From: Pseudomonadota bacterium
Lineage (GTDB): Bacteria > Pseudomonadota > Alphaproteobacteria > Acetobacterales > Acetobacteraceae
Assembly (NCBI GenBank): GCA_021781835.1
Contig: JAJXWD010000011.1
Location: 1-64,000, forward strand
Direction of reading: 5' to 3'
Length of the DNA stretch: 64,000 bases
In this document: positions 28,926-35,170 of the stretch, one piece after another
Layout: every line of letters starts with the position of its first letter
Position numbering within the stretch: the first letter of the stretch is position 1
Program-made: the position numbers and the translations under genes
The notes under the pieces: generated by a model
Database searches by the model: none
What the model saw: the letters and a program-made list of their open reading frames with translations, nothing else
Told to the model about the DNA's origin: nothing

Positions 28926-29459
28926 CTAGATCTGGGCGGTGCCGGTTATGCTTAGGCTATATGGGTTTGAAAAGCCGGGAAGGGGAAAGGCCAGGCCGAA
29001 GCTGACATTTAGCTGGTATTGGATATAGAGCTGCAAGGTTTGGCCGCTGGAGCAGCTTGTGCCGGTTGTGAAAGGCTGAAGCGAGGAGACCGTGTAGGCG
29101 CCATTGCCGCCAGACACGCAAGCATACTCGACATTAGAGTTGCTGCCCGACACCGTGCCCGAGGCGAGGGTGATATTGAACACCGAACCGCTGCCGCTGC
29201 TGGCCAAGACGGCCGATTGCGCGCTGGCATTGGCCGTGTTTTGCGCGACGACATTGTTGCTGGTGAGGTGTGAATCATTCGCCCAGGCGTAATAAAGCAT
29301 CGATTGCATCGCCGTGTTCATCTGCGATTTGGCCGACAGGATGCTGGTGAAATCCACGCCACCGGCAAGGAGCGGCAGGAATATCAGGGTTGAGATCAGC
29401 GCGAACTCGACCGATATGCTCGCGTGGCGGTCGCGGTGGAAGAGAGATGCTATTTGCAT
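28926..29459 (-). CDS. TadE-family pseudopilin-like protein (third gene)
   Basis: 177 residues. N-terminal arginine/histidine-rich stretch followed by ASISVEFALISTLIFLPLLAGGVDF, the single hydrophobic helix and conserved Glu of TadE-like proteins. The rest is Ser/Thr/Asn/Gly-rich with two cysteine pairs (YACVSGG, TSCSSGQ) that could form disulfides outside the inner membrane. It overlaps the upstream TadE gene by 10 nt. TadE-type proteins are minor pilins of Flp/Tad pili, but no tadA, tadB, tadC or flp gene is in the window. Confidence 0.8.
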   Translation of the reverse strand: MQIASLFHRDRHASISVEFALISTLIFLPLLAGGVDFTSILSAKSQMNTAMQSMLYYAWANDSHLTSNNVVAQNTANASAQSAVLASSGSGSVFNITLASGTVSGSNSNVEYACVSGGNGAYTVSSLQPFTTGTSCSSGQTLQLYIQYQLNVSFGLAFPLPGFSNPYSLSITGTAQI

Positions 29460-29962
29460 GTGGCGGCCACCGTTTGAGAGGCGCTGCCCACGATCGGGGC
29501 GATGGCGGACATGGTGAATGTCAGTCCGGAAAACTCCGCGAATCCCAATGGTTGCCAGTTATAGGTGGCGCGGGCAAGGACGGACGTGCTGCTGCCGGAT
29601 CCCGACCATGTGACGGTGAGCGAGAGGGGCGAGCCCGATATGGTGCCAGATGCACCGCTGGGCGCAGTGCCCGTTGAGACCGCCGGCACGCCGGTATCGA
29701 AACCATTGAACGTCGAAATCGTGCGGGTCAAGCACGGCTCGGTCAGGCTTGGGCTGGAGGTGACCAACCCATTGGTCGCCTGAATGGAGGCCCAGCGTAC
29801 GGTTGCCTTTAGCGCGTTGGTCACGGAGTCCAGGGAAAAGGCCAGAAAGCCGATATTTATGAACGCCATGACAAATGCCATGAAGGCAAGACCAACCAGG
29901 GCAAACTCGATCGCGGCGCTTGCCCGCCGCTGTTTGCGGAAGCGGAAGAAGATCGGTTTCAT
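29450..29962 (-). CDS. TadE-family pseudopilin-like protein (second gene)
   Basis: 170 residues. Basic start (KPIFFRFRKQRR) and then ASAAIEFALVGLAFMAFVMAFINIGF, the TadE transmembrane helix with its Glu. The C-terminal part is Thr/Ser-rich and likely periplasmic or extracellular, with two cysteines (EPCLTR and the final ATCK). It overlaps the TadG-like gene by 4 nt (ATGA) and the next TadE gene by 10 nt, so all three are translated together. Confidence 0.82.
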   Translation of the reverse strand: MKPIFFRFRKQRRASAAIEFALVGLAFMAFVMAFINIGFLAFSLDSVTNALKATVRWASIQATNGLVTSSPSLTEPCLTRTISTFNGFDTGVPAVSTGTAPSGASGTISGSPLSLTVTWSGSGSSTSVLARATYNWQPLGFAEFSGLTFTMSAIAPIVGSASQTVAATCK

Positions 29963-31938
29963 TGCATCAATAGAGCCTGGGCCGCGCCGCCGCCGCTGGA
30001 GCCGCCGCCGGTGCCGCCGGTCTCTTCAAGGATGACCGTGCCGCCTTGGGTAACGGAGATTGAGCCGACGACAATGCCCAATGAGCCAGTGATTCCAGAA
30101 GCGCCGCCCGTGCTGTACCCGCTGGGCGCGATGGTGCCGGCACCGCTATCCGTGAGAGACGCGCTTGGCGCATATATCCAGCCATTCATGACCGTGCTCG
30201 CCCCTTCATTAACGGTGTCGGCCGCCGTGTCGGCGCGGGACTGGTAGATTAAAACCCCGCAAATGCCTTCGCCATCGGTGCCGTCGTAAGGTGGGGCGGT
30301 GACGTCGGCGTCGATCGGGTAGGCCGCGGGTTGAACGCAGTTGCTGGTCGGGGCGCTGAGGGAGGTCGATGTACCGCCGGCGATGTCAAATCCGGCCGTG
30401 CCTTCCAGGATGAACGTGACCCCCGTTCCAGTTACATCGGCGCCTGCTGTAATTGTCAGGTTGCCGTTGCGGATATAGTATATGCCCGGGCAAAACGTGA
30501 CGTTTTTGGTGCCGTTGGAGATGTTGAGGCCGCCATCGAACCAGTAGGTGCCGGGGCTGGTGCCGCAGTCTCCGGCGCTGTCCACCGCGCCAAAAACGGT
30601 GTTGCCTTGGTCGGCGTAATAGGCGCCGTTTTTCGCGCCGGAATAGGCTGTGAAGACATAATTTCCCGTTGGCCAATAGGCGTCTGTCGTTGCGGTGCCT
30701 TGAATTTTGGCGCCGCCATTGAAAATATAAGTGCCGCCGGGCTGTGTTTGGATCGTCAGGATGGCGCATTGATTGTCGAAGGCGTAATCGTTGCTGTTGT
30801 ACATGTTGTAGGAATTTCCTTGCAACTCCAAGCCTGGGGATTGTCCCCAGCAATTGGTTGCAAAGCCGCCGGCGATATAATAGGCGCCATTGTCGAAAAT
30901 GGTGCTGTCGCCGTCCGATCCTCCGATGCCGCCCGTGATGTATGTTGTGCCCAAAGCCCCATAGCCAAGCTCATTTGACGGATTATTGATCTTCGACATG
31001 CCGTTGTAAGCACCCGGCGGCTCGCTGCAGCAGACATATTTCACGAAATTCGAGGCGGTGGGAAAGCCGCCCTGGCCGAGCTGATTGGTCCATGGTGTGG
31101 ACGCGGTTGAATATTGCCAGTTTTGCCAGGGCAAATTGCTGGAGGTTGTTGTGTCTCCCGGGGCCATGTTGGCCAAAGGATCGGGTGTCACGCTCGCATT
31201 GTCTGTGCCGGCATAGGTCCCGTGGGGAATTGGCGATTGGGTGGGGCCGATATAGCCGTTGCTGTAGGAGATCGAGCCGCCGCCAACCGCGTTGACGGAG
31301 CTGCCTTCGATAACGGCTGACCCATATGGAATGGAAATGGCGCTGGAACTGCTGGAGTTTGCGGTGATGCCGCATTTGACCCCTTGAATGAACCCCGCGC
31401 CTTCTGCCGTGATGTCCGTGCCGGTGGTTCCGGTGGCCAAGAGGCAGGCGCTGGAACTGCTCGCCACATAATCGGCGGCGGCTCGGGCGGTTTGCATGCC
31501 CGCCGGCATGCCCGACAAGCCAAGCCCCCCCACGCCGGAAAAGAAGCTCATGCGTGGGGCCGAAACCGTTGCCACCCACTGGGTCGCGGACTGGCCGTTG
31601 ACGGTGATCGCGCTTGGCTTGATGGTTACCGATGCCGAGCTTAGCGCCGAGCGGTCGCTATTGGCGGCCCTGGCCGCGGACAGGGCGAAGGGTTGGGCTT
31701 GTGCTGAGGTGCCGACATTCGAGGCCCCATAGACGATCTCGGCCTGAGCCGCGGACATTGCCGCCGCATCGGCCGCTGTTTGCAGGGAGCCCTGCTCTTG
31801 ATACCAAAATCCGATATCGGCGACAAAACCGATCATGGCAATTAGCATGGGCGCCATTAGCGCGGTAGGCAGCACCAGACTGCCCCGCCAGTCACGCCAA
31901 AGGCGGAAGAGCGGAAAACGGCAAACGGCTTGTTTCAT
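29959..31938 (-). CDS. TadG-like surface/pilus-assembly protein
   Basis: 659 residues. Basic N-terminus, then WRGSLVLPTALMAPMLIAMIGFVADIGFWY, the hydrophobic helix of the Tad_N/TadG type, and LQTAADAAAMSAAQAEI, the usual stretch after it. From residue 170 to the end it is a long Gly/Ser/Asn/Tyr-rich region with scattered cysteines and repeated beta-like phrases (GTYIFNGGAKI, GTYWFDGGLNI). It lacks a recognisable VWA domain. First gene of a three-gene minus-strand operon with an AT-rich 650-nt upstream region. Role in a pilus or other exported structure is inferred. Confidence 0.75.
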   Translation of the reverse strand: MKQAVCRFPLFRLWRDWRGSLVLPTALMAPMLIAMIGFVADIGFWYQEQGSLQTAADAAAMSAAQAEIVYGASNVGTSAQAQPFALSAARAANSDRSALSSASVTIKPSAITVNGQSATQWVATVSAPRMSFFSGVGGLGLSGMPAGMQTARAAADYVASSSSACLLATGTTGTDITAEGAGFIQGVKCGITANSSSSSAISIPYGSAVIEGSSVNAVGGGSISYSNGYIGPTQSPIPHGTYAGTDNASVTPDPLANMAPGDTTTSSNLPWQNWQYSTASTPWTNQLGQGGFPTASNFVKYVCCSEPPGAYNGMSKINNPSNELGYGALGTTYITGGIGGSDGDSTIFDNGAYYIAGGFATNCWGQSPGLELQGNSYNMYNSNDYAFDNQCAILTIQTQPGGTYIFNGGAKIQGTATTDAYWPTGNYVFTAYSGAKNGAYYADQGNTVFGAVDSAGDCGTSPGTYWFDGGLNISNGTKNVTFCPGIYYIRNGNLTITAGADVTGTGVTFILEGTAGFDIAGGTSTSLSAPTSNCVQPAAYPIDADVTAPPYDGTDGEGICGVLIYQSRADTAADTVNEGASTVMNGWIYAPSASLTDSGAGTIAPSGYSTGGASGITGSLGIVVGSISVTQGGTVILEETGGTGGGSSGGGAAQALLMQ

Positions 31939-34034: not shown

Positions 34035-34264
34035 GGGGGATCCATTTTGGTCGGGATGGGGGGAATTTAGCCGCCTCGGGGCGGGCTGTCACGCGCGGGG
34101 GGCGTTTGGGCGGTGGGGGTGGGGGGTAACAAAATGATACGGCGGGGCGGGCGGTTGACTTATGAAAGGCGCGGCGCAGAGTGGGGCGGCGGCAAAATGC
34201 CCGCTTCAGGAACGAGGTTCTCGGAGTGGCTTGGGGGGGCGTGCCGCGGGATTGGAGATTGGTG

Positions 34265-35170
34265 ATGAGTGAAACGCACGCGCCGGTGGTCAGCTATTTG
34301 GGAAACAGAATTTTGGTGCGGGACGGCGAGACCGTGCTCGACGCCATGCTTAGAGCCGGGATCGATTTGGCGTTTTCGTGCAAGGCGGGCAGTTGCCAGA
34401 CTTGTCTGCTGCAATGCCTGGAGGGCGAGATACCTGAGCGGACGCAGCGGGGGCTTGCGGATGGGGTGCGGGCCAAGGGGTATTTCATGCCCTGCCGGTG
34501 CAAGCCCGTGGGCGATATGGTGCTGGCGCCCAAAAATGCCGATGATCTGGCGGCGGAGGCGTCCGCCAAACCCGTGGCGGCCACGGCCCCGGGGGCGGTG
34601 GAGATTGCCTATCCCGAAACCGATCCGGGGCTGTGGGCGGAATTGCAGGAGGGCGGCGACAAGGTGCGCCGGATTTTGGCGGATTTTTATGACGCGGTGT
34701 ATGCGGATGAGGCGCTGGCGCCGTTTTTCGAGCGGGTCTCGAAAGAGCATATCGCCGGGCAGCAATATACCTTTATGAAGCGCTGCCTGCTGGGGGAGAA
34801 GGTTTATTTTGGCGACCGGCCGCGCAATGCCCATCACTGGATGGTGATTTCGGAGGCGCTGATGGACCACCGCCAGGCGCTGATGGAGAGGGCGCTGCTC
34901 GATAACGGGCTGACCCCCAGCCAGGCCGAGCGCTGGATGCGGCTGGAGGAGCATTTCCGGGGCGATATCGTGAAAACATCGGCATGGCCGAAGCGAATCG
35001 GGGCGCTGGAGGTGATGTTCGAGGGCGTGGGGCAGGAGGTTATGGCCGTTGCCACGCTGTGCGATTTTTGCCAGGCGGAAATCGATGCCGGGACCAGGGT
35101 GGTGGTGCACCAGCGGCGCGGGTGGGTGAGCTGCCCGGATTGCGCGGAGGCGGCGGTTTTGCAGGCGTAA
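34265..35170 (+). CDS. Ferredoxin / truncated-hemoglobin / zinc-ribbon fusion
   Basis: 301 residues from the ATG at 34265, with GGAG 8 nt upstream. Residues 5-90 are a plant-type [2Fe-2S] ferredoxin with Cys39, Cys44, Cys47 and Cys77 (C-x4-C-x2-C-x29-C). Residues 128-245 resemble a truncated globin (ILADFYDAVYADEALAPFFERV, then FGDRPRNAHHWMVIS with candidate heme-ligand histidines 190-191). Residues 266-293 hold CDFC and CPDC, a zinc-ribbon-like site. The order suggests a heme protein with its own electron-transfer module, perhaps for NO or oxygen chemistry. The domains are seen in the sequence; the role is inference. Confidence 0.82.
   Translation: MSETHAPVVSYLGNRILVRDGETVLDAMLRAGIDLAFSCKAGSCQTCLLQCLEGEIPERTQRGLADGVRAKGYFMPCRCKPVGDMVLAPKNADDLAAEASAKPVAATAPGAVEIAYPETDPGLWAELQEGGDKVRRILADFYDAVYADEALAPFFERVSKEHIAGQQYTFMKRCLLGEKVYFGDRPRNAHHWMVISEALMDHRQALMERALLDNGLTPSQAERWMRLEEHFRGDIVKTSAWPKRIGALEVMFEGVGQEVMAVATLCDFCQAEIDAGTRVVVHQRRGWVSCPDCAEAAVLQA

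Follow-up and report, generated by a model that had tools for sequence, protein, structure and literature searches.

Our analysis indicates that a gene of Acidocella encodes, in a single chain, a predicted plant-type [2Fe-2S] ferredoxin, a predicted group 1 truncated (2/2) globin and a four-cysteine tail, and that this protein, judged by sequence, is the reductase-less deletion form of a family found in Pseudomonadota, Myxococcota, Acidobacteriota and Gemmatimonadota. Since relatives usually adjoin the gene for a Ras-like GTPase switch, the globin may be a gas or redox input and not just a detoxifying enzyme. Our best reading, which we hold with slightly less than even confidence, is that the protein would provide an O2- or NO-binding, redox-maintained haem input to a GTPase/Roadblock module, with signalling as the presumed output. 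More tentatively still, we propose a widespread form of gas or redox signalling in which an Fe-S-coupled truncated globin, mostly equipped with an NADH reductase of its own, would control a Ras/MglA-like GTPase, Roadblock proteins and a fusion of an ABC ATPase with a dual-specificity phosphatase (ABC-DSP), the reductase being an optional part that has repeatedly been lost.

The window, by which we mean the whole 64,000-nucleotide stretch that was analysed, encodes the protein as an open reading frame that translates into 301 residues (Table 1). Its ATG is the start codon also used by the closest homologue (L024); initiation further upstream, at a GTG at 34181, is conceivable but has no homologue support. 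Close relatives assign the window to Acidocella; the orthologue from A. aromatica is 69-70% identical, and comparison with the 86%-identical orthologue gives dN 0.08 and dS 0.46, which points to purifying selection on the gene. A chance reading frame on either strand is ruled out by the Pfam matches, the orthologues and dN/dS, and a unique fusion or assembly artefact is ruled out as well, since the short domain order recurs in about 15 relatives and the longer in many more. Carriage on a plasmid was rejected as well, there being no full match among 72,556 plasmids. The neighbouring genes encode a HAD hydrolase, another protein and a FUSC-like protein, and no signalling partner adjoins. Upstream of the ferredoxin-globin gene, at 28926-31938 on the - strand, lie TadE/TadG-like pseudopilin genes, which we named by eye.

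Table 1. The ferredoxin-globin gene and its parts, in window positions.
Feature	Position	Strand	Basis
Likely ribosome-binding site, GGAG, about 7 bases 5' of the ATG at 34265	34254..34257	+	Direct sequence reading
Open reading frame, Fer2 - truncated globin - CxxC/CxxC tail	34265..35170	+	Orthologues with 86/70/67% identity in G007, G034, G012
Predicted plant-type [2Fe-2S] ferredoxin domain, residues 1-95 (Pfam Fer2 15-81; Cys 39, 44, 47, 77)	34265..34549	+	Pfam, Foldseek
Linker, residues 96-117; FAD and NAD domains occupy the same place in full-length relatives	34550..34615	+	Alignment
Predicted group 1 truncated (2/2) globin domain, residues 118-240	34616..34984	+	Pfam, AF2, Foldseek
Tyr142, position B10	34688..34690	+	81/81 in family; aligned to Y25 of Tetrahymena trHb
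Gln167, position E11	34763..34765	+	Gln 67/81, Val 11/81; aligned to Q50 of Tetrahymena trHb
His190, position F8, proximal haem ligand by alignment	34832..34834	+	81/81; aligned to H73 (EAHKGM) of Tetrahymena trHb
His191, within family signature N[A/S]HHWMVI, not the proximal ligand	34835..34837	+	81/81
Four-cysteine tail, probable zinc ribbon, residues 250-301 (C266xxC269, C290xxC293)	35012..35167	+	Cysteine conservation

The cysteines of the protein are exactly those of the tail and the pattern C39-x4-C44-x2-C47-x29-C77, as the first-pass annotation had read them. The N-terminal part scores above the curated cut-off for Pfam Fer2 (E 5.7e-14) and its model matches the PDB entry 1rfk in Foldseek (TM 0.84, normalised by target), so that the spacing CX4CX2CX~29C and the beta-grasp fold are both present, and we predict that the domain is a ferredoxin that binds its cluster; the ferredoxin domain is also the only part of the protein matched in PHROGs. 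The four Fer2 cysteines are kept in all 65 relatives that carry the domain and each tail cysteine is kept in 78-79 of the 81 family members, which argues that the pattern is not due to chance. Against the PDB the tail shows a weak similarity to zinc fingers (E 0.03), and it is probably a zinc ribbon.

The middle of the chain had been proposed to be a truncated globin with one of two adjacent histidines as proximal haem ligand, a proposal that a model lacking the globin fold or a haem pocket was to overturn. What we find is the fold together with the pocket positions, which we take to be B10, E7, E11 and F8 in helix numbering. Pfam Bac_globin matches residues 130-234 above its curated cut-off (E 1.8e-7), and the AlphaFold2 model, computed from an alignment of 81 sequences, has a pLDDT of 92.2 and a pTM of 0.85 and resembles the solved truncated globins 1dlw (TM 0.87), 1idr (0.81) and 8ugz (0.88; all normalised by target). 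In the alignment to Tetrahymena trHb, I163 falls on Q46 (E7) and H190 on the F8 histidine, which rules out H191 as the proximal ligand; mutants of the Tetrahymena protein named Y25F, Q46E and Q50E occur among the solved PDB entries that were matched. The family profile gives E 3e-15 against group 1 truncated globins and 0.02 against both HbO and group III, and we therefore place the domain, as modelled, much nearer to group 1 than to either of the other groups. Haem binding is predicted from these positions, and the sequence of the pocket corresponds to an O2-binding group 1 truncated globin, which in principle could dioxygenate NO. The perfect conservation of the signature around the two histidines is partly a selection effect, because NAHHWMVI was one of six patterns used in the family search; a relative found by profile and not by pattern has NSHHWMVI.

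The family search over GTDB genomes found 104 relatives, and 80 loci were retained. Over 81 members, Pfam detects the globin in 81, Fer2 in 65, FAD_binding_6 in 42 and NAD_binding_1 in 41. About 40 relatives, which make up most of the Fer2-bearing ones, are some 520 residues long and read, from their open frames, Fer2-FAD-NAD-globin-CxxC/CxxC, and we regard this form, on its sequence, as a truncated globin joined to a complete NADH-linked reductase. The relative that was found independently by profile shares this architecture. The model of a full-length relative (pLDDT 88) matches the reductases GcoB (E 1e-27), BenC (E 3e-25) and T4moF, and its reductase part also matches flavohaemoglobin. The remaining members have about 370-400 residues with a remnant of the FAD domain, about 300 residues, as in the window, or about 200 residues with globin and tail only. 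In the window protein Pfam matches neither an FAD nor an NAD domain, and an outside electron donor would be needed. The suggestion that a haem domain wired to its own iron-sulfur module makes a self-contained NO or oxygen redox enzyme thus survives in part: the domains and the fold stand, while self-containment fits the full-length relatives and not the window copy. The pairing of 2Fe-2S and truncated globin, for which a domain-architecture search had been proposed, is widespread, mostly in chains that also carry FAD and NAD domains.

How did the short form arise? In a tree of globin and tail the length forms cluster but are not monophyletic; the 300-residue form needs five changes, of which well-supported branches force at least four, and the reductase has, as we read the tree, been lost several times. 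A profile of the reductase region detects FAD remnants in most of the 370-400-residue forms (E 1e-24 to 1e-2, the best shuffled control being 0.37), and in one 300-residue protein (L033) the region's two ends are each detected (E 1e-6), the pattern that an internal deletion would leave. The linkers of the Acidocella orthologues match both ends of the relatives' reductase region weakly (E 0.008-0.08). Acidocella is nested in a clade (support 100/99) of mostly betaproteobacterial reductase-less forms, many of them with FAD remnants, and for this reason a simple ferredoxin-globin fusion is ruled out as the ancestral form, for the Acidocella branch only. The nesting among betaproteobacteria, together with the presence of the globin in only 4 of 37 Acidocella genomes, suggests horizontal transfer of the gene.

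Clustering of the neighbouring proteins reveals recurrent partners of the globin gene in relatives, mostly upstream and on the same strand: a GTPase of about 180 residues that resembles Rab and MglA, an ABC-DSP fusion, a conserved 135-residue protein, a Roadblock/LC7 protein that resembles CvnB5 and MglB, and one further protein. Of the 80 loci, 50 have one or more of the four named partners within 8 kb; among the 40 loci whose upstream sequence extends for 7 kb or more, the number is 26. Many relatives have the MglA-like GTPase and a Roadblock protein in one operon, and some flanks beyond the core genes encode PAS, GGDEF and EAL signalling domains. The ABC-DSP fusion occurs at L028:5708-7048 and at 40 other loci, its phosphatase part, of the dual-specificity/tyrosine kind, matching DSP families (E 4e-21); it is usually paired with the highly conserved 135-residue protein, and the pair is also found with no globin nearby (L161, L162, L163). 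The 135-residue protein belongs to no recognised family and has no PDB match, and a Roadblock identity was not accepted for it, the profile comparison giving 70.8% probability over 33 columns only. Neither a recurrent histidine kinase nor a recurrent oxygenase or catabolic gene was seen near the family loci. NO-responsive neighbours, for which the first-pass annotation had advised looking, do not recur and appear at one locus only; it is the GTPase and Roadblock genes that recur instead.

A few loci merit separate mention. PilT/PilU-like ATPase genes, named by eye, lie near the ABC-DSP pair at L162:2377-4868, which may hint at a connection with type IV pili such as MglA has. The globin gene of A. 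aromatica and that of a relative (L025, L026) stand between EpmA/EpmB-like genes (class II tRNA synthetase-like and radical SAM) and the gene for elongation factor P, an adjacency that is probably coincidental. Chains in which a 3/3 globin precedes a 2/2 truncated globin (Pfam Globin and Bac_globin) came from the phylum sample at L136, L137, L142 and L167 (3095-4144), three of them confirmed; the locus of the last, which represents a distant group, holds Roadblock, 135-residue-like and GTPase genes and so lends further support to a tie between globins and GTPases.

In Acidocella the module is dispersed over the genome. The window's own genome encodes, away from the globin gene, two copies of the 135-residue protein, a homologue of the GTPase and an ABC-DSP protein divided between the ends of two contigs, while three sister genomes have intact pairs of ABC-DSP and 135-residue genes (G007:C3, G034:C3, G012:C33). 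All four globin-bearing Acidocella genomes encode the ABC-DSP protein. The 135-residue protein is present in all four as well, compared with 7 of all 37 Acidocella genomes (hypergeometric p 5e-4, uncorrected for shared ancestry). In a sample of 399 Pseudomonadota genomes it is found at high score in 5, and the one other globin-bearing genome of the sample has it too.

How could such a chain act on a GTPase? In the path that we consider, electrons from a cellular donor would enter the 2Fe-2S domain, which would hold the globin haem in its ferrous state, able to bind O2 or NO in the Tyr(B10)/Gln(E11) pocket; most Fer2-bearing relatives would have the donor within the chain, with electrons passing from NADH to FAD to 2Fe-2S to haem. 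The ligand or redox state of the haem might then be read by the Ras/MglA-like GTPase, the Roadblock/LC7 protein or proteins, the ABC-DSP fusion and the 135-residue protein, a module whose genes are dispersed in Acidocella. Repeated loss of the reductase with retention of the globin is more easily understood for a sensor than for an enzyme of high turnover, and together with the operon it favours an input role, whereas the pocket and the reductase favour NO dioxygenase chemistry. The two are not mutually exclusive.

Several observations weigh against the signalling input: the partners are not next to the globin gene in Acidocella, where only two of the four globin-bearing genomes have a GTPase homologue; 30 of the 80 loci lack a partner within 8 kb, although many of these are short contigs; the genus-level statistic ignores common descent; and an efficient NO dioxygenase has just such a pocket. 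The main rival, which we consider possible though the less probable account, is that the protein is a truncated-globin counterpart of flavohaemoglobin, converting NO and O2 to nitrate with electrons that arrive through the 2Fe-2S domain from the relatives' own NADH reductase or, in Acidocella, from an outside one. Its Tyr B10, apolar E7 and Gln E11 reproduce the distal pattern of M. tuberculosis trHbN, full-length relatives have the complete reductase, and FNR-type reductases have been proposed as donors to truncated globins elsewhere (PMC3820574). At one locus (L042:10020-16179) a nap-like cluster for periplasmic nitrate reductase follows the operon and ccm-like genes lie upstream, the only such case that we noticed. 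However, the recurrent neighbours are signalling genes and not NO-response genes, the reductase has been lost repeatedly from a retained haem domain, and valine replaces the E11 glutamine in 11 of 81 members. An unlikely third account makes the protein an electron-transfer or oxygenase/peroxidase component whose haem would act on a small molecule other than NO or pass electrons to a partner protein, with the tail as docking site; the likeness of the reductase part to the oxygenase reductases BenC, GcoB and T4moF speaks for it, as does the specific interface suggested by the conserved tail and the invariant H191-W192-M193 beside the proximal histidine, but no oxygenase or catabolic gene recurs nearby. 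That residues 118-240 have lost haem, as in RsbR, is very improbable: identity to known globins is low and the model was made without haem, but the F8 histidine and B10 tyrosine are invariant and the fold match is strong.

The natural deletion series, from full reductase through decayed FAD domain to none, would allow a direct test, in environmental species including Marinobacter and Acidocella, of whether the protein is an enzyme or a sensor. The single domains are already known, each as a member of its family, and the architecture is apparently uncharacterised. As the first-pass annotation had anticipated, the searchable literature, incompletely covered, yielded no well-studied protein of this domain order; nor did it yield a description of the Fer2 - truncated globin - four-Cys architecture, of the deletion series or of its association with GTPase, Roadblock and ABC-DSP genes.

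Among known systems, the group 1 truncated haemoglobins (M. tuberculosis HbN, Tetrahymena trHb, Chlamydomonas THB1) share with the window protein the 2/2 fold, the F8 histidine, the B10 tyrosine and mostly the E11 glutamine, but they are single-domain, whereas the window protein adds the N-terminal 2Fe-2S domain, the four-cysteine tail and the N[A/S]HHWMVI signature. Flavohaemoglobin (Hmp) resembles the full-length relatives in joining a haem globin and an NADH-FAD reductase in one chain; its globin, in contrast, is 3/3 and N-terminal, and it has neither a 2Fe-2S domain nor the tail. With no reductase, a 2/2 globin and, in its relatives, the reverse domain order, the window protein does not class as a flavohaemoglobin. 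The raphidophyte NR2-2/2HbN is a eukaryotic nitrate reductase with molybdenum and cytochrome b5 modules. There, as far as it is described through PMC3820574, a truncated globin likewise lies within a multidomain redox chain of the FNR type. Ferredoxin reductases of the BenC/GcoB type have the same Fer2-FAD-NAD order as the roughly 40 full-length relatives, while the window protein lacks FAD and NAD; those reductases serve separate oxygenases or P450s, whereas in the relatives the globin is fused as presumed acceptor. Globin-coupled sensors have the globin fused to an output domain, of which the window chain has none, its link to signalling being one of neighbourhood and genome. Actinobacterial conservons, which are GTPase-Roadblock operons sometimes with a cytochrome P450 accessory (PMC13343842), and MglA-MglB (PMC13343842, PMC4316618) share the small GTPase and Roadblock and at times a haem accessory (P450 CvnE); the family loci differ in the ABC-DSP fusion and the 135-residue protein and in having no recurrent histidine kinase. 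If our reading is correct, bacteria have a haem-globin input to small-GTPase switching. The sole precedent that we found for such a link is Methylacidiphilum HGbRL, a globin fused to Roadblock/LC7 (PMC4476040), which shares the physical tie between globin and Roadblock but belongs to another globin group, has no iron-sulfur domain and achieves by fusion what would here be achieved through an operon.
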